From a virus: a stretch of 64,000 nt of DNA. Below, piece after piece: positions 1-62,554 of the stretch (position 1 is its first letter; each line of letters opens with the position of its first letter). The DNA lies in the IMG/VR virus record IMGVR_UViG_3300042261_000868, positions 16,665 to 80,664 of that record; one strand, 5' to 3'. The translations under genes were made by a program, and so were the position numbers. The notes under the pieces are model-generated. The model was not told the origin of the DNA and did no database searches. It was given only the letters and a program-made list of their open reading frames with translations.

Positions 1-381
1 CTCTGGGATATTTTGAAAGTTTTGCCAGAGAAGCAACTTGTTATGAAAATTAGAGAAAGTCTAAATAGAAAAGATGATGGTATTGGATATGTCTACGGTG
101 TAATTAGTGTAATATCATATTATGCCGCCAATAAACTTTCCGAGTCTACATTAGCTAAACCAATCTCTAATTTATTAAGGGAGTTATTAACGAAGTCAAG
201 CATTATGCAGATGAATGCAACGTATGAAAATAATGTTTTAAAATTTAAGTTAATTCACCCATTGACAATTAAAGAAGGTTTGATAAAATTAGACGGTGGA
301 CACAATTATTTCCGTGCCAGTTCTAAATCTGGACACAGATCAAGTCCTTCTGGCGGTATTGCTTTTAAATTACCAAATTGA
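1..381 (+). CDS. Hypothetical protein, 5'-truncated by the window edge
   Basis: The frame is open from base 1 to the TGA at 379-381, so the gene probably starts upstream; a TTG at 13 is only a possible internal start. The visible 126 residues are mixed alpha/beta and end with a basic Ser/Gly-rich stretch (SSKSGHRSSPSGG). I do not recognise the family. The next gene follows after 7 bases and has its SD overlapping this stop, so the two are probably co-transcribed. Confidence 0.6.
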   Translation, partial: LWDILKVLPEKQLVMKIRESLNRKDDGIGYVYGVISVISYYAANKLSESTLAKPISNLLRELLTKSSIMQMNATYENNVLKFKLIHPLTIKEGLIKLDGGHNYFRASSKSGHRSSPSGGIAFKLPN

Positions 382-16554: not shown

Positions 16555-19500
16555 ATGGCATTTAACGCAGATTTTACTATTGATAATGATGGTATCCACG
16601 CCAACGAAAAGATTTATTTTAAAAACACATCAACAAGTGGGTTTTTGATAGACAGTGATTTCTTGGAGATTGATGGGGATGTTACAAAAGCAGATTTAGA
16701 CCTATCTAATTATATAGTAAGTAGTATTAGTAAATTACAATGGTCATTCACTGATGGTAACTTTTTTAATACTGACGATGTTATCCATAGATTTAAAGAA
16801 TCTAAAACTGAGAGAGTCACTCTAAAGATTTGGTCAGAGGCTTTCGTTTATCAAGGAACCACCTTTTACTTCACACATAACATAACTAAAGATGTAGATG
16901 TTCAGTCTAGATTCTATAAGTTTATAAAGGATCATTATCCAATCTACGACGACATTACATCAAACGAACTTGATGATTTAATGAAGTCGGCTGGTAAGTT
17001 TTTTGATAGAATGCATACCGATATTGGTGGATTAACTTCTCTAATAGATATTCATAGAATAGACCCAGAGTATCTTGAATATTGGGCACTTACTTTAGGA
17101 CACACAGAGTATGCAAAGAAGGTTGGATATCAACTTAAAACAAATGATTTTGACAACTATGATATCTTTGATAAAATTAAATATAATACAGCAACGAGTA
17201 AAGAGATAGATACATTAAGAAACTTTTTACTCTTTAGTGCTGATTTGTTTAGAAATAAGGGAACCCCCGATAATATTATTAAGTTCCTTAAGTTCTTTGG
17301 TGTTGATGCTAAAATCAAAGACCTATGGACACAATCTTGGACAGCTATTCTCAGACCATCTATCGTTGAAACATTTAGTGGTTATACAGACTTTGACGAT
17401 AACCAATTAAAATTAAAATGGGATAACATAAAGGTTGCCGATTTTGATAACTCAAAGAGTCACTTCATAAAGAACTTTAGTTCTATAATTCTTGATAGTT
17501 ACCATATCGTTGAGGAGATTGAGAATCCTTATGATGAAGTAGCAACTGTTGCTGTGTCTGGTGATAAACTTGGTTGGAAGGAATTTGAATTAACCACTAA
17601 TTACGGTTTAACTGCCTCTCCATCTATAATCTCGCATATCTTTAAAATAAACGGAAGCCCAGTATTAGACTCAGAAACCGATGACTTCACTCTTTATACA
17701 GATGTGGTTCCAAACAACCCAACCAGATTTGACTCAGAGAAGTATTCGGTATTACAAATTGATCCAACAGTAATAGCTGACGGAGATAGATTTAGCATAC
17801 TTTACGATTTACCATACGATGGTAAGAAAGACTGTATCGTTACCACAACAACTGAAAAGGTTAAAGATTTTGACTTAAAGGTTTCTTTTAGGACAAAACA
17901 AGAGAACACAAGGACCAATCTCTACAGGGCACCAGACAATGAAATATTCGTTTCATTTAGAGGAACAAAGAGTTCAATAGACAACAATTCAGATTATAAT
18001 AACTTCTATAAATTCTCTATTAACACAGATAGATCAACATTCTCCCTTTCAAAAATCATCTTAAGCGAAAGCATAAACGACTACTTGACTCAACACATTA
18101 GTCTTAGTTATAATAACGACGAAGTTTATGAGCCAATTATAATCTATCCAGAAACATCTTCTATCTCAGCCAGTGAGGTATTTGTATTTGATCGTGAAAA
18201 AGAATATGAGCTTCTTTTAATGGTCAATGGTTCTTCACTTTCAAGTTATGTTAGAGAAAAGAGAAACGAAAATGAAGTTAAAGCTGATATAAGCAACTTC
18301 AAAGGAAACAATAACATTTATGGTGTTACAGAAATTGAATGGACACCGCTCATTGAGAACTTCTCTTTTGATGTTCTTCCAAAAAAAGTAAAGACGGTTG
18401 ATGCTTATGGTAACGAGATGTATGCCGAGACATACAAAGTAATTAACGAGGCTGGATATTATGGATTTGGTGTTAAAGACGGTATAGTTGAATATACCAG
18501 AATTGAACTAAATAACCTTGACCCAGATACTCGTTTATATAACGAAGTTGAAAAGGAATTGGAATTAAAACCAAAACATCTTGAAAGAATACCATCCTAT
18601 GAAACCAGAATGGATAACTACGAGAATACAAAAAAGGACTTCTTAAAGGTTGTTTCAGAAGACTTTAAGACAAACTCCACATATGATGTATCAAAAGAGG
18701 AATCCAAATCCCTTGATATCTTATTCGTAGACAAGGCATCTGTTCCTCAAACATTAGGAACAAGACTTACTGTTAACTTCAACCAAAATTGGATTAATAG
18801 CAATTTCACAAGTGACGAAGATTTAATTAATAAAATAATTATTCCAATTGGTAGCCAAAGAAACTGGTTTATACCAGAACAAAGAGTCTTAAGTAGTTCA
18901 AACTACGAAAGTTACAACACAACAAGTGGAGCACCTGGCTTCTTCTCTGCTGATTTCTCCCCAATGCTTGGTGAATATTCCCTTGAGCCACTTGATAGTT
19001 TCTCGTCAGTGTCAAGAGCAAACATTGATACATATACACTCAACTTTAATAGCAGACTACAGCAATATATTGATTATAGGTCCGATGGGTTTACCCTTGA
19101 TGGTGTTTGGGAAGAGGTATATCCTTATTCAAATGTTTTTGAGTCTATTTCCAAAGATATTGTTTTAGATGACTCGTCCATATATGTGAATAAAATGTTC
19201 GTACCTATTACGGTTGACATTGCAGAGGGTACAAGAATATTGGGAGTCAAGTTCAAGAACTGCGATAACATAAAGTCCCTCATAAGCAGATATGGTACAG
19301 AGTTCAATAAAGAAGTCCAATTGTGGGGTAGCTTTACCTTCCATGTGCCTTGCAATACTACTCTTTATAAGCCATCTTCTTACCCATTAGAAGAATCCAA
19401 TAAGTTCCCTGGTCACTATATGATGACCATTTTCGTACCGCTTGGTATATTAAACGAAGCTGTTTTGAATTATAGTTTAGGTAGAGAGTTCACCCAACAG

Positions 19501-43056: not shown

Positions 43057-43782
43057 TTAAATATTCTTTTTCGCTTTATCAAATAAAAGTCGCTTTAATG
43101 TATTCATCTGTGACATTAGATTAGATTTAGTTTTCTCATCAGTTGCTTTAGAGATTTCATATTCTAATTTTTTATAAATGGTTTCTACCATACCCTCTTG
43201 TTTATTGTTAAGACTATACTTACAGTCTTTAACAAGAGTCCCAGCAATAGAACACCAATCAGTGACTTCCTCAATACGATACTTCGTATTTTTCTCCATT
43301 AACTTCATTTCAAAAGCGATGCTTTCGCGTTTAATTTGAAGTCTTTTTAAATCAAACTTCATTAACATTGGATCACCCATTTCTTTAGGAACTTCATTTG
43401 ATTCAATAAGAGCGTGGAGTGCGCCTATTTTATAATCTAATTCTTCTATGTCAACTTTAATAGACTCAATTTTATAAACATTCCTAACGAGTTCATTAAA
43501 GTGGACCTCTGCCTCTGCCTTACATTGCCAAAATTTAGCATCGGCTGTGGGGAATTGACCATCTGAAAGCACAGATGCCAATTTAACAATCATTGGTCTA
43601 TATTGTGGGGTGTCCACAAAAGATGATATAGCAAAATCCTTAGCAGCATTGAGTGCCTTAATATCCTCTGGGGATATTAAGGTTTGCTCAACGAAAACCT
43701 TAAGGATATTTTTAGTCTCTTCGGCTACTTGGGTACTTGCTTCAAGTTTCTTAAGTGGAACTATGCTCTGATTATCTGTCAT
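43057..43782 (-). CDS. Hypothetical coiled-coil protein
   Basis: 241 residues, almost fully helical with long charged heptad-like stretches (VDIEELDYKIGALHALIES, LKRLQIKRESIAFEMKLMEK). No catalytic motif seen. It overlaps the ClpP-like gene by 4 bases (ATGA) and is the last gene of the - strand unit. Possibly a structural or scaffold partner of the protease; this is inference from position only. Confidence 0.6.
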   Translation of the reverse strand: MTDNQSIVPLKKLEASTQVAEETKNILKVFVEQTLISPEDIKALNAAKDFAISSFVDTPQYRPMIVKLASVLSDGQFPTADAKFWQCKAEAEVHFNELVRNVYKIESIKVDIEELDYKIGALHALIESNEVPKEMGDPMLMKFDLKRLQIKRESIAFEMKLMEKNTKYRIEEVTDWCSIAGTLVKDCKYSLNNKQEGMVETIYKKLEYEISKATDEKTKSNLMSQMNTLKRLLFDKAKKNI

Positions 43783-44414
43783 TTTTTTCCTTTTTTATGT
43801 TTCTTATTTTTATTTGGGATAACCTCATCTGCAATATTAAACTTCAAGGCTTCTTGGGCTGTTAACCAGATGTCGTGTTCAGCAAGTAATTCTTTTTCAA
43901 TCTCTTTCTTTCTAAGACCCGTGCAGTTCATATAATGAGCAAGCATACGATCATATGTGCTTTTGAATTCTTTATTAACAGAGATAAGGTTATTATGACC
44001 ACCAGCGGCACCCCAACTATAAAGATGACTCATGATGGATGTTTTTTCGGTAACAACTCTTTTTCCAGGTTCACCATTCATAAAAATCATTAAAGCGGCA
44101 CTTGCGATTTGCCCTAAACCAGTTGTGTAAACTGGAGTAGTAATATAATCCATAACATCACAAATTTGCCAAGCAGCATTAATAGAACCACCGCCACTAT
44201 TAATAATCATTGTAATTGGGTGGAAGTTATTAGTCATATTGTTTATTTTGTCTAATGCGACCATTTGTTGTGTTGCCGCAACTGCTGTTTGAAGGGTAAT
44301 TTCACCGACAATGTAAACGATATAATCAAGTGGATTTATTCTAATGACTGATTCTTCGTGCTCATCATCCTGATCTTGCTCGTTAACTACTTCTTCGTTT
44401 GGTTTTTTAATCAT
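43779..44414 (-). CDS. ClpP-like serine protease
   Basis: 211 residues. Ser-type protease of the ClpP fold: IVGEIT start of the core, INSGGGSINAAW oxyanion-strand region, nucleophile S105 in GQIAS, H130 in MSHLYSW and D181 in EHDIWLTAQEAL. All three catalytic residues are present. Acidic N-terminus (about 20 residues) and a Lys-rich C-terminus are extra. In some phages a ClpP-like enzyme is the prohead protease; elsewhere it may tune host proteolysis. No capsid or Clp ATPase gene is seen in the window, so the role stays open. Confidence 0.85.
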   Translation of the reverse strand: MIKKPNEEVVNEQDQDDEHEESVIRINPLDYIVYIVGEITLQTAVAATQQMVALDKINNMTNNFHPITMIINSGGGSINAAWQICDVMDYITTPVYTTGLGQIASAALMIFMNGEPGKRVVTEKTSIMSHLYSWGAAGGHNNLISVNKEFKSTYDRMLAHYMNCTGLRKKEIEKELLAEHDIWLTAQEALKFNIADEVIPNKNKKHKKGKK

Positions 44415-45917: not shown

Positions 45918-46913
45918 TCAGAGTACCAAGTATCCATGTGTTGTAACATTCATGCAATACTTATAGACGGTTTCATACTCTTTAAGTAATTGCACTATTT
46001 TAACAGTTTTCTCTAATTTATCTCCATTAACTTCATAGAGACTTAAAATTTTAAGTTGCTTGTGGGCATGGAGAAGATAATTATAGAAGTTAATAACCCC
46101 ATGCACAGTTCGAGCCAATAAACGATTATTAAATGCCATAGCAACTTGTGGGTGCTTAACAATGTTCTCTGGGAGTGTCTTATGGGAAACTTCTGTCCAA
46201 ATTTTTCCAATGTTGTTGCAAGTATCCCTAATATCAGCGGAAACCGATCTAGCGGGATTGTTCTGTTTTTGGAGTGCTATGTTTTCCCTCTGCATCTGAA
46301 TGATGTTCTCCATTAAATCGTCAGGAATAAAAAACTCTGGCTCATCACAACCGATTAGATAAAGATAGTCCCTTGATTTATCATTAGCTTTTATGCTGGC
46401 AACATATTGAATCGTCTGTGGTTTGTTTGTCCAATTATTGCAGATAAGAGCATATCTCTTAAACTCTTCCTCATCGGAGCCGCTATTGCACTTATTGATA
46501 ATTGTTTGTTTGCTTCCTTTCATCTGAAAGCAACCAAAAAAGGTAGATGTGCTGGACTCTGAACGTCTCCCAAACAACTGATCCAAGGTTTTAATTTTAC
46601 GGTTCTTAAGATATTTCGTGGAGTTACCTCCAAAGAAATCTGGAGTGTTGATTCGCTCATGCTGGCTAGTAAACCCAACATTCCAGATGGTAGAAAGCCC
46701 AATGTGGTCAAATGGATTACCTTGCTCCTTTTCCAATTCAGACAATTCAAAAAACATATTCAAGTATGACTTAGCAGAAATTGAAGCAGTTGGAGTATTG
46801 GTACTATCTGTACCCGATGCTGGGTCAAGGCTAATAATAGTCCCACCCATAATTGCGGTACGGAGATTGTTTATTTTAAAAGTCTCTTCAATTTTCTTGA
46901 TGGGATCACTCAT
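45918..46913 (-). CDS. Unknown protein coupled to the MoxR-like ATPase
   Basis: 331 residues, overlapping the ATPase gene by 8 bases, hence translationally coupled. N-terminal GGTIISLDPASGTDS is glycine/serine-rich; then a Ser/Thr-rich middle (GRRSESSTSTFFG), KCNSGSDEEEF, and a helical C-terminus (LLARTVHGVINFYNYLLHAH). I find no catalytic motif. Because it travels with the MoxR/VWA pair, it may be their substrate, adaptor or third subunit. Confidence 0.6.
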   Translation of the reverse strand: MSDPIKKIEETFKINNLRTAIMGGTIISLDPASGTDSTNTPTASISAKSYLNMFFELSELEKEQGNPFDHIGLSTIWNVGFTSQHERINTPDFFGGNSTKYLKNRKIKTLDQLFGRRSESSTSTFFGCFQMKGSKQTIINKCNSGSDEEEFKRYALICNNWTNKPQTIQYVASIKANDKSRDYLYLIGCDEPEFFIPDDLMENIIQMQRENIALQKQNNPARSVSADIRDTCNNIGKIWTEVSHKTLPENIVKHPQVAMAFNNRLLARTVHGVINFYNYLLHAHKQLKILSLYEVNGDKLEKTVKIVQLLKEYETVYKYCMNVTTHGYLVL

Positions 46914-48096
46914 ATGTCATCCATTCCTTAAGGTTTTTGGGTTCTGTTAGGACTCCTTTTTTAACAAGGTAATCGCATACCTTTATGTTAAACTCTACAT
47001 CCATAAGTATTCTGTCTTTAATAATAGGATTGCCGTTGAATATAGCAGCACAAGAGTCAGATGGTACGATAGCATTGTTAAAGAACTTAAACATCCAATC
47101 CATGTCATTAATGGTCAATGTATCCTTACGATCATTGATCCAATTATTGATTGAATCAATGAGTTTTCCAAGGATATCAACACGTTCTGTCTTAACACCT
47201 TCAATCTTGGTAGTTAATGCTTCGGTAATCAACTGTTCATTATTATCATAGTCAAGCAAATGGTCAATAGTTATATTACAACCCCTCTTTGAGAATTCGG
47301 CCAACCATTCATCGGCAAATTGTTCACCCAAATAGGTTTCAATAATGTGCTTACCATGCTGACGAACCCAATCTGCGGGCTTCTTACCAATAACCCGCAT
47401 GGTGTGGTCAATGGAACGACGAGTTGGTTTAATCTGGAAATCAAGTTTAAAATTACCAATTGTCATAAACTCTGGATTCTTTTTAAGGACATTAATAGTA
47501 ACTTGGTCCATTCCAGTTGATTTAAGGAAATTGATGTATTCAGTATTGGTCGGCTTAAAGATACAGTGACCGACACGGTTTAACATAGCCTCATCACTGA
47601 TGGTATTAACCTCATACTCATCGGTAGGTGGGTTCATCGCACAGATAATGGCATCTTCTTTATTAACACTATGGGTATGCAACTTGCCACCAATTAAAAA
47701 AGGAAGCATAGCAGACAAGACGAACCGATTGCCTCTATTAAATTCGTCTAAAAAGAAGAGGTTAGGCATACCAGTAGCCTTAGAATTCTCAAGTGCCTTA
47801 TGTAGCCACTCAGGGCACGACCAAACAGTGGCATTGCCGATTACCTTCCCATTCTCGTCCTTATACTCCACTGACTTAGGAATGCCTATTAGATCGCAAA
47901 TGTCGCCTTGGGTAGCCAAGTGGACCACCACGAGGTTATAGCCCCGCTTTTGAGCTATCTGGGTCACGAATTCAGTCTTTCCTACACCCGCAAGGCCCCA
48001 TAGAGCTACAGGGAGCTTATAATCGCCCTTGGAGGAGTCTAAAGAGAAGTTAATAATCTCTTCAATCTGGGTACAGTCGAATACTTGTGTTGGCAT
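46906..48096 (-). CDS. MoxR-type AAA+ ATPase
   Basis: 396 residues. Walker A GLAGVGKT (residues 34-41), Walker B LFFLDEFNRG with D117/E118, sensor-1 Asn in IICAMNPPTDEY, then MLNRVGHCIF in the region of the arginine finger. The E-F-N-R ending of Walker B is typical of the MoxR/AAA_5 group, chaperone-like ATPases that nearly always act with a VWA-domain protein; such a partner is encoded just upstream (48143-50071). Own promoter at 48115-48141. Confidence 0.85.
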   Translation of the reverse strand: MPTQVFDCTQIEEIINFSLDSSKGDYKLPVALWGLAGVGKTEFVTQIAQKRGYNLVVVHLATQGDICDLIGIPKSVEYKDENGKVIGNATVWSCPEWLHKALENSKATGMPNLFFLDEFNRGNRFVLSAMLPFLIGGKLHTHSVNKEDAIICAMNPPTDEYEVNTISDEAMLNRVGHCIFKPTNTEYINFLKSTGMDQVTINVLKKNPEFMTIGNFKLDFQIKPTRRSIDHTMRVIGKKPADWVRQHGKHIIETYLGEQFADEWLAEFSKRGCNITIDHLLDYDNNEQLITEALTTKIEGVKTERVDILGKLIDSINNWINDRKDTLTINDMDWMFKFFNNAIVPSDSCAAIFNGNPIIKDRILMDVEFNIKVCDYLVKKGVLTEPKNLKEWMTYE

Positions 48097-48114
48097 ATCG
48101 GTCCTCTGGAGGGT

Positions 48115-48141
48115 ATTATATGGTTATTTTTTTAAAGTCAA
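48115..48141 (-). promoter_or_regulatory. Sigma-70-like promoter for the AAA+ gene
   Basis: TTGACT (48141-48136), 15-base A/T spacer, TATAAT (48120-48115), then GAGG and ATG 48096. Confidence 0.6.
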
Positions 48142-48142
48142 T

Positions 48143-50071
48143 TTATTCTTCGTCTTGGCATATGACTTTGTGCCCAAGACTCTCAAGTACGGTTTTGTAG
48201 CGGGAATGTCCTCTACTTAAAAACATAAGTATCTTGAAGTTATATTGACTAGCGGGGAAGTAATCAATTTCACCATCGGTAAAAAGGATAACTGGTTTTT
48301 TATTTCTTTCTGCTTTAAGTCTCTCAAAGAGAACTTGCATAATTGTTCCGCCAGTTTCTCTAACGAGCATTTTATGTATTTTGGAGATATTAACCATACC
48401 ATCAAACGAGACACGAGTATGGCATTGCATAACTCGTAACTTATCGGCATTGAAGTCTTTAGATATACGGATAACTTGGTTGCAGAAGTCGTTCCAATCC
48501 GATCCACAAATAGAACCAGAAGTGTCCATACCAATGATGCAGTCTAAGCCCCTTTCCATTTTCTTGCCTGGGAAGTAATCTGGCTTGATTCTATTTTCTC
48601 TGGACATAGTAAAGTCTGCTTCGGAGACATTGATGGCAAGATTCATAAAGTTTTGAAGCATCTGTTTCCAGTTTTTGGTTTTCACTTTAAAGAAGTTAGC
48701 CAACTCCGCTCCAAACTTGTCAAGCCCAGGAATTGAGTTTAACCCCTTCAAGACCTCATTGAAGTCAGACATATCAACACCAGACCGCTTAAGGCTCTCT
48801 TTAAGGGCGCTTCTGGCTTCTGATCGTTGTGTTGCATTATCCAAGGCATCAAACCCTTGGTGAACATTCTCACCAGAGAATTTTTTCCCACGCTCACTTG
48901 CCTTTTCTTTTGTTGGAGCCGTATCACCATTGAGGGATTTAGATTCTTTTTCCTCTTTATCATCACTAGCTTCAGCATCATCTTCGCCGTTTTCTTCATC
49001 CTCATCATTTTCGGATTCTTCCGTTTCCATTTCTTCGTCCATTTCAACATCAACAATGTCCCATTCAGCATGGTCATCATAACCACTATCTTCGCCTTCA
49101 TCCTCTTCTGATGGGGGTGTCTCTGAAAGAATACGGTAATATTCGTCAGCACTTTTACCCAAATAACAGTTCAACATAAATGCTGGATCTCTACTAAATC
49201 GATCCTTAAGAGTCGGAAGATGCTTCTGTATGTCACTGTAAACATCATCTTGGTTAATAGTGAATAACTCATTAATCTTCTGCGCCATCTCATTATCAGT
49301 CTTATATTGATAGGTGATAGCAGATATAACAAACTTCTTGAACCACTTCTTGTTTGCTGGGGTAATAAGAACTTTTTTAATGGGTTGAGTAAAAATACAC
49401 GACTGATTGATTGCAAAGTCAGTAGCATAATTCCACAGACGCATATCTTTTGATTCCTGGCGACCAGAAATATGATTCAAAATAACGTGAAGGTATTCGT
49501 GGATAAATGCAGAAACCATGTTCCTTAAAAGGGCATCGTCAGTAATGAGTACCATACCCCACCAACGAAAAGAGGTTTCGTCCCATTCTCCCCTCACAGA
49601 GCAATCATAGAGCATCTTAAGTAACTTAAAGTTAACTCCAGTCACTTCGGAGGTAATTTCTTTGCCCTCCGCAATCTTCTCCGCGACTTTGGTAAGGTAA
49701 TTCTTTAAATCCTCTGGGTTCATAGTTTCTTCCAATATGGAAGAAATATGCATTTCATACATTCTCAATGGATTAAATTTTATCTTATACCGATTTGCTG
49801 ATGCAACATACGACACAGCAGCGGCTTTTTTAAATTTGAAATCATCCTTCTGCCAAATACGGCGACTAAAATACTTCCAAAAGTTATTACCTATAAAATC
49901 ACGCGGAGTCTTTTCGCCGCCCCCATATGTGCCAAAAAAGCTGGTAGCTGTAGAACCCCGTGCGAGAGCATTTAATATATTATTTTCTTCAACCCAATCA
50001 TTATCATTTTTAAACCAAAAACTCCTATTACAAAATAGGAGTTCACTAGTTGAGTATAAGATTTTGTCCAT
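48143..50071 (-). CDS. VWA-like metallopeptidase (DUF2201 type), MoxR partner
   Basis: 642 residues. Zincin-like motif H191-E192-Y-L-H195 in AFIHEYLHVILNHISG, typical of the N-terminal putative metallopeptidase of DUF2201 proteins. Residues about 305-370 are an extremely acidic linker (runs such as DEDEENGEDDAEASDD). From about residue 505 a VWA-like domain has IIGMDTSGSI with the MIDAS DxSxS, plus GGT and FTDGEID. This is the expected binding partner of the MoxR-type ATPase that follows. Its target is unknown; protein remodelling in virion assembly or interference with host complexes are both possible. Confidence 0.82.
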   Translation of the reverse strand: MDKILYSTSELLFCNRSFWFKNDNDWVEENNILNALARGSTATSFFGTYGGGEKTPRDFIGNNFWKYFSRRIWQKDDFKFKKAAAVSYVASANRYKIKFNPLRMYEMHISSILEETMNPEDLKNYLTKVAEKIAEGKEITSEVTGVNFKLLKMLYDCSVRGEWDETSFRWWGMVLITDDALLRNMVSAFIHEYLHVILNHISGRQESKDMRLWNYATDFAINQSCIFTQPIKKVLITPANKKWFKKFVISAITYQYKTDNEMAQKINELFTINQDDVYSDIQKHLPTLKDRFSRDPAFMLNCYLGKSADEYYRILSETPPSEEDEGEDSGYDDHAEWDIVDVEMDEEMETEESENDEDEENGEDDAEASDDKEEKESKSLNGDTAPTKEKASERGKKFSGENVHQGFDALDNATQRSEARSALKESLKRSGVDMSDFNEVLKGLNSIPGLDKFGAELANFFKVKTKNWKQMLQNFMNLAINVSEADFTMSRENRIKPDYFPGKKMERGLDCIIGMDTSGSICGSDWNDFCNQVIRISKDFNADKLRVMQCHTRVSFDGMVNISKIHKMLVRETGGTIMQVLFERLKAERNKKPVILFTDGEIDYFPASQYNFKILMFLSRGHSRYKTVLESLGHKVICQDEE

Positions 50072-50552: not shown

Positions 50553-50799
50553 TAAGTGGTTCCTTTTCGTCAATTGGGGTTATAAGGTCTTCTTCGTCAA
50601 CTAATTCGGCTAATTTGAAAAGGGGTTTTACTTTTTCTAACTCTTCGTACTTAAACAATCCCCTGCCTTGTGGATAGAAGTGAACACTATAACGAACGGG
50701 TAATGTGGGTTCAATGAAAACCACTACACCTTCCTTATCCATTTTTAAGTGTTTTATCTTATCTCCAACTTTTAGAACATTTGATCTCGGTCTTGACAT
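50545..50799 (-). CDS. Small beta-barrel-like protein (KOW/SH3-type)
   Basis: 84 residues. VLKVGDKIKHLKMDKEGVVV then VRYSVHF reads like an SH3/KOW-type barrel that sets clearance and viscosity-like 'G-x-V' turns, often found in nucleic-acid- or protein-binding adaptors. AAAGGA precedes ATG 50799; the start lies 28 bases inside the upstream gene. Assignment by pattern only. Confidence 0.5.
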   Translation of the reverse strand: MSRPRSNVLKVGDKIKHLKMDKEGVVVFIEPTLPVRYSVHFYPQGRGLFKYEELEKVKPLFKLAELVDEEDLITPIDEKEPLNA

Positions 50800-51911
50800 A
50801 ATTTGGTCCTTTCACTGTTTAGGTATAATAATATTTTGGACACATCATTGAATTCAGCATTAACTGAAATTTTTGCTTTTGCCATTTCAAGTAAGTTATT
50901 AATCTCTAATGGATCGCTTATCCCGAAAGCATTTCTTATCATGCTTTCGGTGATACATAATTCTGTCTTAGCAAATAATTTTACTTTTTGTTTTCTTAGA
51001 TTTCTTGCTAGTAACTTGAAATTCATTGCTTTCAATAAGCGACACATACTAACAACTCTAGTTTTATCAACATTAAATAGAACCTTCTCAAGTTGCTCAT
51101 CAGACTCATCAACGATTTCTCGTATTAATGAGGTTATTTTTAATACTTGTTCAACATCTTTTAGAAGGAAACCACATTTCTCAACGAAAAAGTTCTCAAG
51201 ATTAGCAAGTTCAATGTTATCAAATAATATACTAAATAACTCGTATGTGTCGTTATATTTTAAATGATTAAGTATTGGTGACTCAATAAGATTGACTCCG
51301 AAAAGTTCCTTTGAGATACCAAAGGTATTCACGAATGAGACATATTTTCTTGGGTAATTCTTCTTGAGGATATCCTTAAGGAAGTTATAAATTTTTCTTT
51401 TTTCTATCTTTGAGAATACTGCTCTTTTCGTGAAGATGAAGTAAGCGGTGTTTGGGTCAATATAGAAATCAGTTAAGTCTAGTGCATTTAATACAGTAAA
51501 GACATTGTAAGGCGAATTATCAAAACTCTGTTTTGCCTTTTCTGTTAACTTAATAACCCCCTTGTTAAAGTCTCTTAATCCATTGTTAAACGATTGGATA
51601 TTATCTATACCAGCTAGAATATCGTTTAAATCAATATAAAGGCAATTAACTGTCAATAGTTCCTTATCTGCATTTATCTTCTTACCACAATAAAATTTAC
51701 ATTGTTTATTACCACACACCACATTTAATCTTGGAAGTAATTTTTCAAAGGTTTCTTCGTCTTTTGTTTCAACAAAAAATTCAAAGGCCGTTGGCTTTCT
51801 TTTTAAGAGAGATTCCCTTAGAGATTCACCTATGAGGTAAACCTTCGCTGTTGGAATAACCGATAATATAAAATCCTTTATATTACTGAAAAGCTCTTTA
51901 GCCGAATTCAT
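50772..51911 (-). CDS. Degenerate nucleotidyltransferase (poly(A) polymerase / CCA-enzyme-like)
   Basis: 379 residues. The N-terminus VYLIGESLRESLLKRKPTAF followed by EFFVE lines up with the class II nucleotidyltransferase start GGxxRDxLLGxxPxDxDFVV seen intact at 60860-62554. Key positions differ: GG is G28-E29, RD is R32-E33, and the DxD metal pair is A42/E44. The helical remainder (residues 140-379) is the right size for the neck/body/tail of CCA enzymes. It is probably catalytically dead, perhaps a tRNA-binding or regulatory protein. Homology is inferred from one motif region and the general layout. Confidence 0.5.
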   Translation of the reverse strand: MNSAKELFSNIKDFILSVIPTAKVYLIGESLRESLLKRKPTAFEFFVETKDEETFEKLLPRLNVVCGNKQCKFYCGKKINADKELLTVNCLYIDLNDILAGIDNIQSFNNGLRDFNKGVIKLTEKAKQSFDNSPYNVFTVLNALDLTDFYIDPNTAYFIFTKRAVFSKIEKRKIYNFLKDILKKNYPRKYVSFVNTFGISKELFGVNLIESPILNHLKYNDTYELFSILFDNIELANLENFFVEKCGFLLKDVEQVLKITSLIREIVDESDEQLEKVLFNVDKTRVVSMCRLLKAMNFKLLARNLRKQKVKLFAKTELCITESMIRNAFGISDPLEINNLLEMAKAKISVNAEFNDVSKILLYLNSERTKLCQDRDQMF

Positions 51912-52439: not shown

Positions 52440-52742
52440 TTAATGGAGTTTATTGCCCCATTTCATATTAAATTCTTGTGCCAATGACCTTAGATTAGGT
52501 AATGCTTTAACTAAGCATTTAATTTGGGTAGGTGGACGCAAATCATAAAGCGATTTTGGTTTTTCGTTCACATTTAAACGAATACTTGGATTAATATGTT
52601 TCTTTAAAACAAGCCAAGCAATAAAGGTCTTTAAATTATCACAAAGAGATACACCAGTAACTTCAAAGAAAAGATCCTCTGGGGATTCTTTTACCTCAAC
52701 ATCGGGACCATTTTCAAAAAAATCTTTAAAGGACTTAATCAT
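52440..52742 (-). CDS. Hypothetical protein
   Basis: 100 residues, starting MIKSFKDFFENG and ending in a basic helix. No SD is visible; instead a perfect TATAAATA ends 5 bases before the ATG (see 52748-52755), so translation may be leaderless or re-initiated. No family recognised. Confidence 0.55.
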   Translation of the reverse strand: MIKSFKDFFENGPDVEVKESPEDLFFEVTGVSLCDNLKTFIAWLVLKKHINPSIRLNVNEKPKSLYDLRPPTQIKCLVKALPNLRSLAQEFNMKWGNKLH

Positions 52743-54562: not shown

Positions 54563-55024
54563 TTAGGTTATTGTTGCTTTTCCAGAACCGCCCATAGCTT
54601 TATGAAGCTGTTTCCAGAATAGGTCATGGAACCCTTTTTTTCTTTTCTTTCCATTTATATAATGGAAACCACGAATAACAAAATCAATGCAATGGGCTAA
54701 TTCATGTGATACGGTATCATAAACCTCCTCTGGTGGATCTGACTGTGCTAAGTCTTTGTTAATTTCTATTATAAGGTATTTTCTGGCACAGTCAACAAGA
54801 TAACGTTTGTATCTCATGTCAATATCCATCTTTAGAGCTTCTTTATAAGTCACCGCATTTGCTTGACCAGCACAAATTTTAAGTCTTGGATTAAAAATAA
54901 TAAAAACTCTTAGTTCACTAACAAGTTTCTTAACCTCATAACTGAAAGAGGATGATTTAGCAAAGTTTCTTTTACTTCGCTGAACCATCCTCCCAATAAC
55001 TTTATGAGTTACCTTGATATCCAT
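54563..55024 (-). CDS. SprT-like zinc metallopeptidase
   Basis: 153 residues. H107-E-L-A-H111 in TVSHELAHCIDF, followed by GFHDLFWKQLHKAMGG, where the later His supplies the third zinc ligand: the SprT/Spartan catalytic layout. Family members cut proteins crosslinked to DNA or act as small cytosolic proteases. The N-terminal 95 residues are basic and helical. It lies among small unknown genes, 3 bases from its upstream neighbour. Confidence 0.75.
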   Translation of the reverse strand: MDIKVTHKVIGRMVQRSKRNFAKSSSFSYEVKKLVSELRVFIIFNPRLKICAGQANAVTYKEALKMDIDMRYKRYLVDCARKYLIIEINKDLAQSDPPEEVYDTVSHELAHCIDFVIRGFHYINGKKRKKGFHDLFWKQLHKAMGGSGKATIT

Positions 55025-57297: not shown

Positions 57298-57713
57298 TTG
57301 AATTTCCTTTTAAGTTTCTTTAAAGCAACTCGACAATATCTTTTAAATCTTGGTTTTGGTTTCCTATTGGCAACTTGTAGCATTATTTTAACTTCTTTTA
57401 TTTGTTTTAATGCTTCGCTCTCTACTGTAGAATTAACACTCGGACAGTCAAAAGTAACATTACCTTTAAAAACAATTCCACTATCGTTTATAGTTATCAT
57501 ATTACCGTTAGGGGATTGAGCAACAAAGGTATGAGATTGAGCAACATTTGACATTGATATACCCGATAACGGACCGAAAGCAACGGTATCATTTGGGTTC
57601 GTAGGGAATTCAACAATAGGTTTTAATTCACCATAACGGTCAATATACTTACCAAGAGCCTCTTCAAGTCTCTTGTTAACGTCTTCAAGTTTTTTGATAT
57701 ATTCTTCGTTCAT
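57294..57713 (-). CDS. Hypothetical protein with coiled coil and fibre-like strand region
   Basis: 139 residues: coiled coil (YIKKLEDVNKRLEEALGKYI), a beta segment (NGNMITINDSGIVFKGNVTF) that resembles virion-type strand repeats, and a very basic C-terminus (KPKPRFKRYCRVALKKLKRK). ATGA overlaps on both sides. Possibly a DNA-binding structural protein; unproven. Confidence 0.55.
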   Translation of the reverse strand: MNEEYIKKLEDVNKRLEEALGKYIDRYGELKPIVEFPTNPNDTVAFGPLSGISMSNVAQSHTFVAQSPNGNMITINDSGIVFKGNVTFDCPSVNSTVESEALKQIKEVKIMLQVANRKPKPRFKRYCRVALKKLKRKFK

Positions 57714-58195
57714 TTGACTACAATAATATCATCCCAGCCTTCGTCATAGTCAACTGGGTTTTCTAAGAGTATTTTACTCTGTCTTTCTATTATTTCAAGA
57801 GGTATCTTTTTAGATGATTTTTTTAATCTCTCTATACATATCTCTGGATTCGTAGCAAAATAAATTGCCGTAGTTTTATATTTAAATTCCTTGCATATCT
57901 TAACGATATCAATTCTATTATCTTTATCTAAGTTCAAATCATCATAATAGATTATAGGAATCTTATAACTTAAAAAGTTCTTAAGGTTACTTAAAGTGAC
58001 TTTATTAACCATATCATCTTTACTGTGGTCCAAAACATCGCCAGATAAATCATTTCTAATAATATCAACATGAATTCTCTTGGACTTCTTAGCAGGCAAG
58101 AGTTTCTTTTTAACGGCGGATTCCCACCAATAACTTTTGCCACTTGCAGGCAACCCCACAGAGACATACACCGTTGGAATTATTTGTAATTTCAT
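57710..58195 (-). CDS. P-loop kinase, polynucleotide-kinase-like (AAA_33)
   Basis: 161 residues. Walker A VGLPASGKSYW, then IHVDIIRNDLSGDV, where D-x-x-R is the signature of the T4 Pnk 5'-kinase domain, and a lid region (CIERLKKSS). There is no phosphatase domain, unlike T4 Pnk (301 residues). Likely phosphorylates RNA/DNA 5'-OH ends or a small nucleotide. It could work with repair of cleaved tRNA, but no RNA ligase is seen in the window. Confidence 0.7.
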   Translation of the reverse strand: MKLQIIPTVYVSVGLPASGKSYWWESAVKKKLLPAKKSKRIHVDIIRNDLSGDVLDHSKDDMVNKVTLSNLKNFLSYKIPIIYYDDLNLDKDNRIDIVKICKEFKYKTTAIYFATNPEICIERLKKSSKKIPLEIIERQSKILLENPVDYDEGWDDIIVVK

Positions 58196-58579: not shown

Positions 58580-59092
58580 TTATAATATGTTATCGGTGTT
58601 ATTTTCAGGAGGTGCAGCATTTGGATCTGCTGCTGGAGCGGCCTCTGGTTCTGGTGATGTGAGGCCACTTAAATCGTCTTGGCCTGGTTCGCCAGTTGCT
58701 TGTGTTGCTGCTGGGTCTGCTGTTGGGGCTTGTTGTCCAGAACCACTTAAGTAACTATGAATAAATTCAATAAGTCCTGGCTTTTTCATTGCACCGATTT
58801 GATTAATGACTTCTTCTGATGACTTCCCAGCATCTTTCTCTGCCAATGCCCACTGAACGGTGCCTTTGAGAACTTCCATTGAAATCTCTGGATCTTTAGC
58901 TTTGCCGCTTGGTCCTTTGGGTTGTTGTTGACCGCCAGTAGCGGGGGCTGGAGCTGGGGTTGTTGGAGCAGCGGGTTGGTCAAGTCCTAAGTCGCTTTGG
59001 CTAACTTGAGCGGGATCGACTTCACGAAGAGTATATCTTTCCTGAATTCTTTTGTTTAATCCTTCTTTATATTCATTGATGTCAAAAGCCAT
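58580..59092 (-). CDS. Ala/Pro-rich hypothetical protein
   Basis: 170 residues. A helical core (about 70-115: MEVLKGTVQWALAEKDAGKS, PGLIEFIHSYLSG) sits between two long Ala/Pro/Gly/Gln linkers (APTTPAPAPATGGQQQPKG; EPEAAPAADPNAAPPENN). Similar linkers occur in the 59410 product. Strong SD AAGGAG. Looks like a tethered virion or scaffold protein; no family recognised. Confidence 0.55.
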   Translation of the reverse strand: MAFDINEYKEGLNKRIQERYTLREVDPAQVSQSDLGLDQPAAPTTPAPAPATGGQQQPKGPSGKAKDPEISMEVLKGTVQWALAEKDAGKSSEEVINQIGAMKKPGLIEFIHSYLSGSGQQAPTADPAATQATGEPGQDDLSGLTSPEPEAAPAADPNAAPPENNTDNIL

Positions 59093-59101
59093 TTGAACTC
59101 C

Positions 59102-59401
59102 TTAATTTTTATATCTGTTAATAAGTGTTGTAATGTCTTTAGCACTACGAATGCCAGTGAAGTTTTCTACAATCTTCCCATCCTTCATAATGAAGGTGGC
59201 TGGAATGCCATTTACATTAAACTTTGCAGCAAGGTCTGGGTGTTCGTCTGTGTTTACTGAATAGAAAGAGACTGAATCAATATTTTTAGAAACATTTTCC
59301 ATGATGGGTGTATACACTCTGCAAGGACCACACCAATCAGCGAAAAACTTAACGACACTTACACCTTGTGCTAATTCTTCAATTTTTTCAAGTTTCTTCA
59401 T
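59102..59401 (-). CDS. trxA: Thioredoxin
   Basis: 99 residues with the complete thioredoxin fold: VVKFFADWCGPCRVYTPIME with active-site CGPC, then VNTDEHPDLAAKFNVNGIPA with the cis-Pro, and FTGIRSAKDITTLI. It reduces disulfides in the cytoplasm and is a natural electron donor for the class II reductase at 683-3052. SD AAGGAA before ATG 59401. Ten bases follow the previous gene. Confidence 0.95.
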   Translation of the reverse strand: MKKLEKIEELAQGVSVVKFFADWCGPCRVYTPIMENVSKNIDSVSFYSVNTDEHPDLAAKFNVNGIPATFIMKDGKIVENFTGIRSAKDITTLINRYKN

Positions 59402-59409
59402 ATTGTTCC

Positions 59410-60183
59410 TTATGGTTGTTGCGGGCCTTTAACGGGTTGTCCAGCTTGTTGTCCAGGAAGCTGTCCAGCATCAGCCAATCTCTTCTTCATGATGTCTCTC
59501 CACTTTGGATATGTCTCGTACATATTCTCGCAGGCCATATGCATAAGGTATTTTTCGTTTTGGTCTTCGCAACCACTGTGGATTTGCTTAATCTGTTGAA
59601 CAATCTTATCAAAGATATTTGAAAGTTTAAACTCAAACTCCATTTCTGGACTTAAGCCACCAATGATATCACCCGATGGTGCTCCTTGGGTTGCGGCCAC
59701 AGGAGCACCGCCTACTGGTGTGCCTGGTTGCTGACCTGGAAGCTGGGTTCCTGGGGCTGGTGATGGTGATGTTGGGTATGCATCAAGTTCCTTAATGATT
59801 TCTTCATAGGACTTTTGAGCGAATGGGATTTGGCTTTCAGTAAGCTTGGCACGAAGGGTATTGTTCTTAACCCCATAGATAGCATCCATATAGAAGAGTC
59901 TGTCATCAATAGCACTCTCTGTAAGGTTCTTTGATTGGCAGTATTTAACTACCTTATTAAAATCTTCAATATTCTTAATATTGATATCAACAATCTTCCC
60001 CACTAACTCAAGCGGGTTAGATCCATATGCTAAAATGTCCTTTGAAGCATTTTCTTCGATGACATACCATCTCTGAATTTTATTGTCATCAAAATAGTGG
60101 ATAGTTGCGGTCTTAACTTCTTTATCCATTCCAACTGATTCTTTAAGCTTATTTTGATAATTAACTTTGTCAATCTTTTGCAT
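59410..60183 (-). CDS. Hypothetical protein with Pro/Gly linkers
   Basis: 257 residues. Folded N-terminal ~140 (IHYFDDNKIQRWYVIEENAS), a Pro/Gly/Gln linker (PAPGTQLPGQQPGTPVGGAP), a helical C-terminal domain with CENMYETYPKWRDIMKKRL, and another GQ-rich tail. Late octamer TATAAATA at 60207-60214 with TAGGAG before ATG 60183 gives a good late expression signal, so it is probably a virion or assembly protein. Unrecognised. Confidence 0.6.
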   Translation of the reverse strand: MQKIDKVNYQNKLKESVGMDKEVKTATIHYFDDNKIQRWYVIEENASKDILAYGSNPLELVGKIVDINIKNIEDFNKVVKYCQSKNLTESAIDDRLFYMDAIYGVKNNTLRAKLTESQIPFAQKSYEEIIKELDAYPTSPSPAPGTQLPGQQPGTPVGGAPVAATQGAPSGDIIGGLSPEMEFEFKLSNIFDKIVQQIKQIHSGCEDQNEKYLMHMACENMYETYPKWRDIMKKRLADAGQLPGQQAGQPVKGPQQP

Positions 60184-60218: not shown

Positions 60219-60779
60219 TTAGGGTTGCTTATGGGGAATCAAAACATATTGCCCACCCGCATATTCCATTCTGGAACAATTTACTAACAATGTAGCAAGT
60301 CGTTTGGCAGTATCTTCAACTATATTGGGGATATATCTTTCTCGCCCCTCTAATTTAACTTGAATCTTAACTTTACAATTCTCGTCTAAAAACTCTTTAA
60401 CTTTTTTTGCTTTAATTTGAAGGTCGTGGTCTTGAATTGTGGGGGACATTCTAATTTCGTGGTCCTCTGACCTATTTAATGCCTCGTTATGCTTTTTCTT
60501 TTTCTTAAGATGATAAAGATGCTTTTTATAATCCATCAATTTACATACGGGTGGGTGTGCATTGGGGGCAACCTCAACTAAATCAAGACTCTTTAGATTC
60601 GCTCTAGAAAGTGCTTCGGTAATAGTTAGGATGCCTTGTTTTTGATCATTCTCATCAATAAGGAGTACCTTTGGTACTCGTATTTCAAAATTAATTCTAT
60701 GCTCCTTTTCACTAACAGAGTTATTAATTTGATATTTTTTATTAAATTCTTTCATAGGCATCATTTGAGCGGTAGACAC
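60219..60779 (-). CDS. infC: Translation initiation factor IF-3
   Basis: 186 residues, full-length for IF-3 (about 175-180). N-domain: INFEIRVPKVLLIDENDQKQ then LDLVEVAPNAHPPVCKLMDY, the family hallmark. A Lys-rich linker (LKKKKKH) leads to the C-domain IRMSPTIQDHDLQIKAKKVK, then VKIQVKLEGRERYIP. IF-3 binds the 30S subunit and controls start-codon and initiator tRNA choice. A phage copy could bias initiation toward phage mRNAs. Start is GTG 60779 with AAGGAG 5 bases upstream. Both a host-like promoter and a late octamer precede it. Confidence 0.92.
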   Translation of the reverse strand: MSTAQMMPMKEFNKKYQINNSVSEKEHRINFEIRVPKVLLIDENDQKQGILTITEALSRANLKSLDLVEVAPNAHPPVCKLMDYKKHLYHLKKKKKHNEALNRSEDHEIRMSPTIQDHDLQIKAKKVKEFLDENCKVKIQVKLEGRERYIPNIVEDTAKRLATLLVNCSRMEYAGGQYVLIPHKQP

Positions 60780-60859: not shown

Positions 60860-62554
60860 TTATAGATCGTATATTTCTTTTACTTTCTTGCCGTAACTCT
60901 TGATTATTTGGCCGCCAACAGCATTGGCTTCATCTTCTAAATCTCCACCGACATCTTGATATTGAGTATTAAGTTCAATTTTACCAACTTTGCGCTGATG
61001 GAAATGCACCAATTCATGAGCTAAGGTTCTCAAAAAGTCCGCTAATGACCTTCCCTTAACATATACCATGATTTCTTCATTGGTTGGGTTGAATGCTCCA
61101 TGTGTCATTCCACCCTTACGAGTAACTAAAAAACTAATCTTAGGCAATTCAGTTAATCTAAGGTAACTTAATGCGTGTTGGATGAAGTTCTCAATGATGG
61201 TTGAGATAGTTTCATCAAATTCTTGCTCAGTTACGAAGGAATAACTATCCTTAGTTATAGGATTTGGTTTAAAATACTCCTCTTGTATCATTGAACTCTT
61301 TATAAACTCAGCGATTTCGCCTGGATTGTTGTTAATTTGACCATCCCATAAGGCAGAAAGCACTTTTTTCTGTGCAACTCCAATCTTTGGGAAGTCTTTT
61401 TTGTCCTTAATACCCATAAATTGGGCCAAAGTAGGTCCATCAACCGCTAACTCCTTGCCACGTAAAGGTACTTGACGCATCTTTTCGATTTTTTGTTGAA
61501 TTTCTTCATCAATTTCTTTAAAAACTTCTGATAAGACTGCTAAATCTTGGTCAGTTAAATTTCCAACATAACTATGTGGGTACTCTTTTGTGTTTTTTAT
61601 TAACTTTGCGGTTTCAATAAGTTTGATGTATTTAGCATCTGGCTTCATAATGTTGTAATTACCACCATTAATAAAGAAAGCAACCATTTGCCCAGAGATT
61701 TTATCCTCTGGTTTGGTTAAATGAGGTAATTTTACAATGAAAGGATTAAATTCAGCACCGAAAAGCTTTTCACCCACCTCTAACTTCCAGAGAAGGGTAA
61801 TAAATGTCTCGCTATCGGCCTTTCCTTTCGTCCACGCCTTCTTAAATTCCTCAAAGATTCTCTCGCCAGATACACTAGAAAGTTCGCTAGAAAGGTTTCT
61901 AATGGCATTGGCAGTCTCACCACTGATATCAAACCCCATTCTCGTAGCAAATTGAATGGCACGAAGCATCCTTAAGTGATCCTCACCAAAACGAGCAAGA
62001 GGATCACCTACAGCCTTTAATACGCCACCTTCTAAATCCTTTAATCCACCGTTGGGGTCAATGACAGCATCTTTTAAAAGTGCAATTGCTTTCTCTTTAG
62101 GGTATGCTTGGACATTTATAAAGACACTTAAAGGAACTGCCATGGCATTCCAAGTAAAGTCGCGCCTCTTTAAATCATCCTCAACAGATGCATTGGGGTC
62201 AACTTGAACAGTGAAATCCGTATGCTTATCGCCAGTACGGTCTTCCTTGGTTCTAGGAATTGCAAAATCAAATTCTTCTTTATCTATATTCGCCTTAACA
62301 ATACCAAACTGTTGACCAACTTCTTTTGGTTTGCCTATTTGGACTAAAGCGTGTTGAATTTCCTCAAGACTTAATTTCCTTACAAGGAAATCAATATCCT
62401 TGGGGTCATGACCTAACACAAAGTCTCTTATGGGTCCACCAACAACAAATATCTCACCACCAGCTTGAGTGATAGCATTATTAATCTTTTGTAAGGTACT
62501 TATATCAACCTTACTCTCATCGAGAACCTTGAAGAAACTTTGAAAATTATCCAT
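60860..62554 (-). CDS. tRNA nucleotidyltransferase (CCA-adding/poly(A) polymerase family) fused to a zincin domain
   Basis: 564 residues. Residues 1-230: class II nucleotidyltransferase with VVGGPIRDFVLGHDPKDIDF (G39/G40, R43/D44, metal-binding D53/D55), the RRDFTWNAMAV motif, and ARFGEDHLRMLRAIQFATRM. Residues 230-430 are the helical body. Residues about 440-564 form an extra domain with LRTLAHELVHFHQRKVGKIE (H513-E514-x-x-H517) and DLEDEANAVGG, which looks like a zinc metallopeptidase site with a downstream acidic ligand. Cellular CCA enzymes of this class have no such domain. The nucleotidyltransferase would mature or repair tRNA 3' ends; the zincin target is unknown. No SD; TATAAATA lies 9 bases before ATG. 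Confidence 0.85.
   Translation of the reverse strand: MDNFQSFFKVLDESKVDISTLQKINNAITQAGGEIFVVGGPIRDFVLGHDPKDIDFLVRKLSLEEIQHALVQIGKPKEVGQQFGIVKANIDKEEFDFAIPRTKEDRTGDKHTDFTVQVDPNASVEDDLKRRDFTWNAMAVPLSVFINVQAYPKEKAIALLKDAVIDPNGGLKDLEGGVLKAVGDPLARFGEDHLRMLRAIQFATRMGFDISGETANAIRNLSSELSSVSGERIFEEFKKAWTKGKADSETFITLLWKLEVGEKLFGAEFNPFIVKLPHLTKPEDKISGQMVAFFINGGNYNIMKPDAKYIKLIETAKLIKNTKEYPHSYVGNLTDQDLAVLSEVFKEIDEEIQQKIEKMRQVPLRGKELAVDGPTLAQFMGIKDKKDFPKIGVAQKKVLSALWDGQINNNPGEIAEFIKSSMIQEEYFKPNPITKDSYSFVTEQEFDETISTIIENFIQHALSYLRLTELPKISFLVTRKGGMTHGAFNPTNEEIMVYVKGRSLADFLRTLAHELVHFHQRKVGKIELNTQYQDVGGDLEDEANAVGGQIIKSYGKKVKEIYDL

Follow-up and report, generated by a model that had tools for sequence, protein, structure and literature searches.

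Why should a phage place an enzyme that builds tRNA 3' ends and a zinc peptidase-type domain on one polypeptide, and what would become of the two parts? The question is raised by an open reading frame (ORF) of 564 amino acids (aa) in a 64,000-nucleotide stretch of viral DNA (positions 16,665 to 80,664 of IMG/VR record IMGVR_UViG_3300042261_000868; hereafter the window), which encodes a CCA-adding tRNA nucleotidyltransferase followed in frame by a zincin. On balance, we favour the answer that the product is packaged in the phage head as a polyprotein, that the prohead protease splits it into a CCA enzyme and a peptidase, and that both are injected with the DNA. Its layout is best read as a capsid-targeting peptide (residues 1-13), a CCA enzyme (14-~425), a prohead-protease site and a zincin (~426-564), encoded by a T4-like phage with a contractile tail and a large genome. 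An earlier note on this DNA had pointed out the fusion and proposed either that it couples RNA 3'-end work to proteolysis or that the zincin is a structural add-on used for virion packing.

Two enzyme-type modules in one reading frame

The gene is intact and occurs once in the 80,664-bp record that contains the window. Around the junction the remaining two frames of the strand are full of stops, and GC content at third codon positions is 0.32 before residue 440 and 0.33 after it. Since both other frames are closed and third-position composition is even, there is no sign of a chimera or of the assembly frameshift that the earlier note had named as a possible flaw.

Profile matches and modelling identify the N-terminal part as a CCA-adding/poly(A)-polymerase enzyme of class II whose motifs are intact. 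It matches Pfam PolyA_pol (PF01743, residues 35-179, E 2.8e-20, 73.4 bits against a cut-off of 23) and PolyA_pol_RNAbd (PF12627, residues 207-264, E 9e-10, 38.6 bits against 22), the PHROG 2244 tRNA nucleotidyltransferase (E 2.4e-53), and CCA-adding enzymes in the PDB by sequence (E 1e-24) and by fold (E 2e-17). The CCA and zincin modules were folded apart, since mixed alignments made with MAFFT put the CCA rows in the wrong place. For the model of residues 1-429 the best fold match is 7oqx (E 2e-17, probability 1.00), and at E <0.001 only CCA-adding enzymes and their relatives are found. The predicted local distance difference test (pLDDT) score is mostly ~80-95 in the head and neck and ~40-75 in blocks past residue 270; this poor modelling of the body and tail accounts for the high root-mean-square deviation of the match. 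The motifs GG..RD, DxD and RRD that the earlier note had read are all present. An alignment of 16 viral CCA modules shows no variation at GG39-40, R43/D44, D53/D55, R130-R131-D132, N136 and E191-D192..R195. The last of these, E191-D192-x-x-R195, is the EDxxR motif of CCA-adding enzymes. The plain CCA enzyme (388 aa) of the huge phage LR756504 (636 kb) aligns to residues 18-409 and has neither end of the window protein. A search of IMG/VR with a trimmed five-row CCA alignment gave as closest matches the solo enzymes L134 (67% identical) and L135 (57% over the 191 residues scanned).

The C-terminal part (~129 residues, where the note had counted about 125) is, by motif and model, a zincin peptidase-type domain that keeps all catalytic residues. 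Modelled alone with AlphaFold2 (142 aa), it takes up a zincin-like fold (pLDDT 89, predicted template modelling score 0.85) rather than a known non-peptidase fold, in the order helix, three strands, HExxH helix and Glu helix; model helices 82-100 and 116-135 correspond to residues 504-522 and 538-557. H513, E514, H517 and E540 never vary in 57 relatives, nor do R502, D506, R509, Q520 and A543. HELVH thus lies at 513-517 as first noticed, and because E540 is invariant, the downstream acidic cluster contains the conserved, predicted third zinc ligand. The fold neighbours in the PDB (selecase, IrrE/PprI (3dti) and YbeY) are all weak (E >=0.04), selecase and IrrE being the best, and the top matches among the predicted viral structures of BFVD are 'IrrE N-terminal-like' phage proteins (E 1.5e-8) and multi-domain phage proteins. 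Pfam matches to M78 and DUF6782 are weak (E 0.0009-0.01), and we rejected membership of peptidase M78 (IrrE; PF06114, 16.3-19.5 bits, below the cut-off of 22) and of the putative metallopeptidase DUF6782 (12.3-15.7 bits, below 27). The domain is best viewed as belonging to a separate phage zincin family, to judge by these comparisons. The family is almost restricted to viruses: pattern-limited scans, whose counts are lower bounds, found it in at least 580 stretches of IMG/VR and at 6 loci among 84,980 genomes of prokaryotes (one per species).

A mobile zincin and predicted cuts at module boundaries

Across 80 viral loci the zincin stands alone (~120-147 aa) or is part of a longer chain (230-2,100 aa), in many cases preceded by a nucleotidyltransferase of the HIGH superfamily or accompanied by a 5'-nucleotidase-like domain. 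By motif, a pol-beta-like nucleotidyltransferase accompanies it in L034 and in a protein of Flavobacterium phage immuto, where the zincin is inside a 907-aa protein annotated as NadR; two cyanophage isolates, Synechococcus phage B23 (gp332) and S-SRM01 (near tRNA genes), have it as a stand-alone protein. Such a distribution marks it as a mobile module. Because it is shuffled among unrelated partners or stands alone, it is not tied to RNA ends, and we set aside a coupled RNA-end/proteolysis machine as the principal explanation; the predicted head-protease sites at the module boundaries, described below, suggest that the parts are separated. The other proposal fared better in one half. Packing is the better of the two ideas, whereas a mere structural add-on is at odds with the conservation of all catalytic residues.

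A survey for the same fusion found both modules in one chain at four further viral loci, L024, L107, L109 and L120, of which three are close kin. There the order is reversed: HIGH-superfamily nucleotidyltransferase, zincin, (HD,) CCA. Their presence argues that the fusion in the window is not an assembly join. In a tree of CCA modules these four form one clade (100/99), while the window module groups elsewhere, with solo enzymes of phages (98/98); on this evidence the association probably arose at least twice, although several branches are long and this is not certain. The two-domain order, CCA then zincin, is seen in the window contig only, and none of the phages with the fusion is in culture. 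The window protein has two enzymatic domains; its relatives have up to five, as judged by Pfam, profile and motif.

Prohead proteases of the T4 type have a consensus of cutting after [LI]xE. We compared 36 non-redundant chains, in which the zincin lies behind other sequence, with composition-preserving shuffles, and found [LI]xE within the 40 residues ahead of the zincin core in 34/36 chains against 17.3 +/- 2.7 after shuffling, mostly 1-13 residues ahead of the core. There was no enrichment of [LI]xD, [LI]xQ, [LI]xN, [LI]E, [LI]xxE, [VFM]xE or [AS]xE in this test. Phage CCA modules behave alike: [LI]xE[ASGND] stands directly ahead of 29 of 68 non-redundant modules (6.7 +/- 2.3 expected; controls flat) and of 23 of the 45 in long chains (5.4 +/- 2.1). 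Polyproteins with unlike upstream sequence retain GLDE/S, RLGE/N, IITE/A or SLQE/A at the CCA boundary (the slash marks the predicted cut), and the matching position of the window protein reads VLDE/SK.

The N-terminal extension offers a candidate signal for packing. Residues 1-13 have aromatics at positions 4 and 7 and end in LDE followed by S (site VLDE/SK), and residues 1-10 are modelled as disordered (pLDDT 31). T4 internal proteins enter the head by means of an N-terminal signal of 10 residues, read mostly at positions 4 and 7, and are cut by gp21 (PMC9026906). The window protein starts MDNFQSF and T4 IpI starts MKTFKEF; other phage CCA enzymes likewise start as T4 internal proteins do (MKIIKFITE/A, MRFSQYLRE/D, MKPFKKFLYE/S, MKSFKQIIHE/N). 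A loose targeting-peptide pattern occurs in 12.5% of zincin ORFs versus 2.8% of background genes. The extension and the zincin are both missing in L134 and L135, the L135 enzyme starting MDNKETLEKILSTLESVGAEIFVVGG where the window protein starts MDNFQSFFKVLDESKVDISTLQKINNAITQAGGEIFVVGG. It is the extension, and not the zincin, that is likely to be the packing signal.

A protease of the gp21 type is encoded by the nearest kin. L135 sits in G030, a 214-kb record whose gp6-like protein is 48% identical over its full length to that of the window phage; G030, the nearest kin with a long contig, carries an S77 (gp21-like) protease (E 2.2e-26) and a solo CCA enzyme without extension or zincin. Of 20 records with the zincin or a CCA polyprotein, 14 have an S77 protease, and the other six are fragments of <103 kb. 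In the L109 record no more than ~18 kb separates the zincin from the genes for the S77 protease and gp23, and the giant CCA polyproteins are encoded three genes upstream of terminase, with the portal gene next. The distance from zincin gene to protease gene is mostly <27 kb, which is not clearly better than random placement in these related and incomplete records.

Several observations weigh against a packaged polyprotein. The closest relatives, L134 and L135, are plain solo CCA enzymes; 2.8% of background genes fit the loose targeting pattern too, and 36% of background N-termini contain [LI]xE; and [LI]xK and Ex[LI] were also mildly enriched at the zincin boundary. IQE425 is 24 residues ahead of the zincin core, beyond the usual 1-13, and [LI]xE occurs ~10 times in the window protein, so that each single site in it is weak and the case rests on the family. 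S77 accompanied CCA genes with sites in 6/9 cases and those without in 7/18, a difference that is not significant. A search of the 80.7-kb record, itself a fragment, for an S77 protease, major capsid protein (gp23) and terminase found none of them, and the head region is therefore probably absent from it. Translation could also begin inside the gene, at Met422, which has AAAGAG four bases before it, and so give a free zincin, a possibility that we found too weak to use.

The larger polyproteins have further features of their own. L024, L107, L109, L120 and L097-L114 encode T4-like phage polyproteins of 1,650-2,100 aa (HIGH-superfamily nucleotidyltransferase, (zincin), HD, CCA) whose C-terminal part has a ligase-like KTDG motif and a recurring GTFAPLNQILGIF-type end; Pfam does not support a ligase-like domain there, and KTDG stands as a motif only. 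A 640-aa nucleotidyltransferase of Microcystis phage Mel-JY01 is related to the ends of the polyproteins. A 2,033-aa polyprotein (L155:173-6271) combines a CCA module with a weak match to the anti-CBASS protein Acb1 (E 0.0016), which suggests a mixed counter-defence cargo. The zincin polyproteins of L018 and L015 have 810-910 aa, and that of L018 contains extra HExxH motifs upstream (HEYIH, HELGH), amounting to several metallopeptidases per chain.

A proposed route into the host and its rivals

For the window protein we propose the following steps. The N-terminal peptide would bring the protein into the prohead core, where a gp21/S77-type prohead protease would cut after LDE13, removing the peptide, and after IQE425, parting the enzymes. 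Both products would then enter the host along with the DNA. Ahead of phage gene expression, the CCA enzyme would restore the 3' CCA of host tRNAs, or of repaired tRNA halves, hit by anti-phage RNases; such tRNA 3'-end repair, the part that PMC7824862 gives these enzymes in jumbo phages, is a plausible role here at entry. The zincin would cleave at least one host protein, perhaps a defence factor, a host defence or regulatory protein being the likeliest kind of target. The relatives, too, suggest a CCA enzyme and a zincin that are both packed in the head, cut apart and injected. As to the wider idea, that in many large tailed phages CCA enzymes are modules of head-packaged polyproteins cut by the prohead protease, with the repair enzyme and the zinc peptidase acting before expression against tRNA-cutting defences, we regard the evidence as evenly poised.

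It is unlikely, in our judgement, that the protein is an ordinary cytoplasmic enzyme of the infection stage that joins tRNA upkeep to a peptidase and is not packed in the virion. Jumbo phages do indeed often encode CCA enzymes, as factors of RNA repair (PMC7824862); a good number of homologues, the two closest among them, are solo enzymes that have no targeting peptide; and the gene adjoins IF3, thioredoxin and kinase genes rather than head genes; however, such an enzyme would leave the boundary-site enrichment in relatives without a reason, and both additions to the CCA core are missing in the nearest kin. Nor is autoprocessing a strong candidate. Here the zincin would itself cut the chain, before packaging or after injection, and free the CCA enzyme with no capsid protease involved, as has been proposed for zincin-bearing polyvalent proteins including DdrB of phage P1 (Iyer et al. 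2017, PMC5512222), and the invariant active site is in keeping with this. Yet the boundaries carry the prohead-protease consensus and not an unrelated one, CCA modules in zincin-free chains show equal sites, and stand-alone zincins of ~120 aa have nothing to release, all of which makes self-cutting quite unlikely.

Two further explanations have little left to them. The S. aureus YbeY among the fold neighbours could be taken to mean that the C-terminal domain is a metal-dependent RNase or RNA-binding part working with the CCA enzyme on RNA 3' ends. YbeY-type enzymes have three histidines and no HExxH glutamate, whereas HExxH and the distal Glu are invariant in the window family; selecase and IrrE are the better neighbours, and the zincin is joined to many enzymes unrelated to RNA, so that we hold this to be very improbable. 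That assembly or annotation has fused two genes would fit the restriction of the exact order to this contig and the solo state of L134 and L135, but against the single open frame with even composition, and the shared chains at the four other loci, it is barely credible. The head-packaged, protease-cut polyprotein is the explanation that we retain.

Neighbouring genes and comparison with known systems

Table. Features of the CCA-zincin gene and its surroundings, in window positions.
Feature	Position	Strand	Basis or remark
Whole ORF, CCA-adding nucleotidyltransferase and zincin, 564 aa, ATG start	60860..62554	(-)	frame read through without a stop
N-terminal extension, residues 1-13, MDNFQSFFKVLDE	62516..62554	(-)	resembles T4-type capsid-targeting peptide; putative function
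CCA-adding enzyme module, residues 14-425 (homology spans 18-409)	61280..62515	(-)	
GGPIRD (39-44), nucleotidyltransferase head motif	62423..62440	(-)	position and invariance
D53-I-D55, catalytic DxD	62390..62398	(-)	position and invariance
R130-R131-D132	62159..62167	(-)	position and invariance
E191-D192-x-x-R195	61970..61984	(-)	position and invariance
Predicted prohead-protease site, I423-Q424-E425 then E426, between modules	61280..61288	(-)	group enrichment; individual site putative
Zincin (HExxH...E) module, residues 436-564, ~129 residues	60863..61249	(-)	
H513-E514-L-V-H517, zinc ligands and general base	61004..61018	(-)	
E540, predicted third zinc ligand, first E of LEDEA	60935..60937	(-)	
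Translation initiation factor IF3 homologue	60219..60779	(-)	neighbour
AAA_33/polynucleotide-kinase-like P-loop kinase	57710..58195	(-)	neighbour
C-terminal end of a second giant multi-domain protein, same phage	1..381	(+)	start 4,413 bases upstream of window, in L087

Among the products of the window are gp5- and gp6-like baseplate proteins of the T4 kind, together with ribonucleotide reductase and an NAD-dependent DNA ligase; on this gene content it is a fragment of a large myovirus. No head genes adjoin the CCA-zincin gene; in LR756504, too, IF3 is near the CCA gene. Next to the CCA-zincin gene are two low-complexity Pro/Gln-rich proteins of 170 and 257 aa (58580-60183 (-)) with [LI]xE near their N-termini (IQE, LKES), which may be additional head cargo. 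A 100-aa protein (52440-52742 (-)) starts MIKSFKDFFENGPDVEVKES, which looks like a capsid-targeting peptide with a possible cut site behind it. The giant protein of ~1,600 aa that runs from L087:12252-16664 on to window position 381 contains FGDLDIDIV, a pol-beta-like motif, as well as a nucleotidyltransferase of the HIGH superfamily (WVGRAQPWHKGH); tblastn against isolate phages gave no match to it. A second, strongly diverged CCA/poly(A)-polymerase-like protein of 379 aa (50772-51911 (-); PHROG 2244, E 2e-6) has lost the GG..RD and DxD residues and is possibly a dead paralogue or a partner subunit. The phage also encodes an SprT-like zincin (54563-55024 (-)), a ClpP-family protease (43779-44414 (-); PF00574, E 1e-32) that PHROGs annotates as a head maturation protease and that could be an alternative processing enzyme, and an AAA+ ATPase adjoining a DUF2201 metallopeptidase-VWA protein (46906-50071 (-)), which resembles the MoxR-VWA-peptidase pair described in jumbo phages (PMC7824862).

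Phage CCA enzymes are usually read as infection-stage genes for RNA repair or tRNA upkeep. If they are packed and injected, repairing tRNA 3' ends would be a counter-defence that acts at entry, matching the many host systems that cut tRNAs. The statistics for [LI]xE ahead of zincin and CCA modules are new here; they offer a simple predictor of virion cargo among the multi-domain proteins of phages, and of the positions at which it is cut, and make the question of how polyvalent proteins are processed, by self-cutting or by a prohead protease, directly testable. The earlier note knew of no standard CCA enzyme with such a domain. The literature searched likewise names no CCA-zincin architecture, and its titles and abstracts report neither a CCA enzyme-metalloprotease fusion nor virion-associated CCA enzymes.

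Among known systems, the window protein shares with class II CCA enzymes and bacterial poly(A) polymerases (7oqx, 6ibp, 1miv) the head, the neck and the GG..RD, DxD, RRD and EDxxR motifs, and differs from them in its N-terminal peptide, its C-terminal zincin and a weakly modelled body and tail. Its zincin has the HExxH...E arrangement of M78/IrrE-PprI and DUF6782 and falls below the Pfam cut-offs of both. The short peptide at its N-terminus, aromatic at residues 4 and 7, the [LI]xE-type site that follows and the S77 protease of its kin recall the T4 internal head proteins IpI-III (PMC9026906, PMC3012670); these are small and act against restriction, whereas the cargo predicted here is an RNA-repair enzyme and a peptidase. 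The closest parallel in architecture is with polyvalent proteins, phage multi-domain chains in which a zincin-like metallopeptidase is the commonest domain and self-processing has been proposed (Iyer et al. 2017, PMC5512222). The window protein resembles them in its HExxH...E zincin, in the shuffling of that zincin with nucleotidyltransferases and in its presumed delivery with DNA, and by its domain content it fits their definition: at least two effector-type enzymatic domains in one phage chain, with the zincin metallopeptidase as hub. The pol-beta nucleotidyltransferases of that study are minimal and toxin-like and belong mainly to mobile elements of firmicutes, and the term CCA is absent from its main text (PMC5512222); in the window, by contrast, the partner is a full class II CCA enzyme and the boundaries have T4-type prohead-protease sites. 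What is new relative to the polyvalent theme is thus likely to be that the cargo is a CCA-adding enzyme and that a capsid protease does the processing in place of self-cutting.
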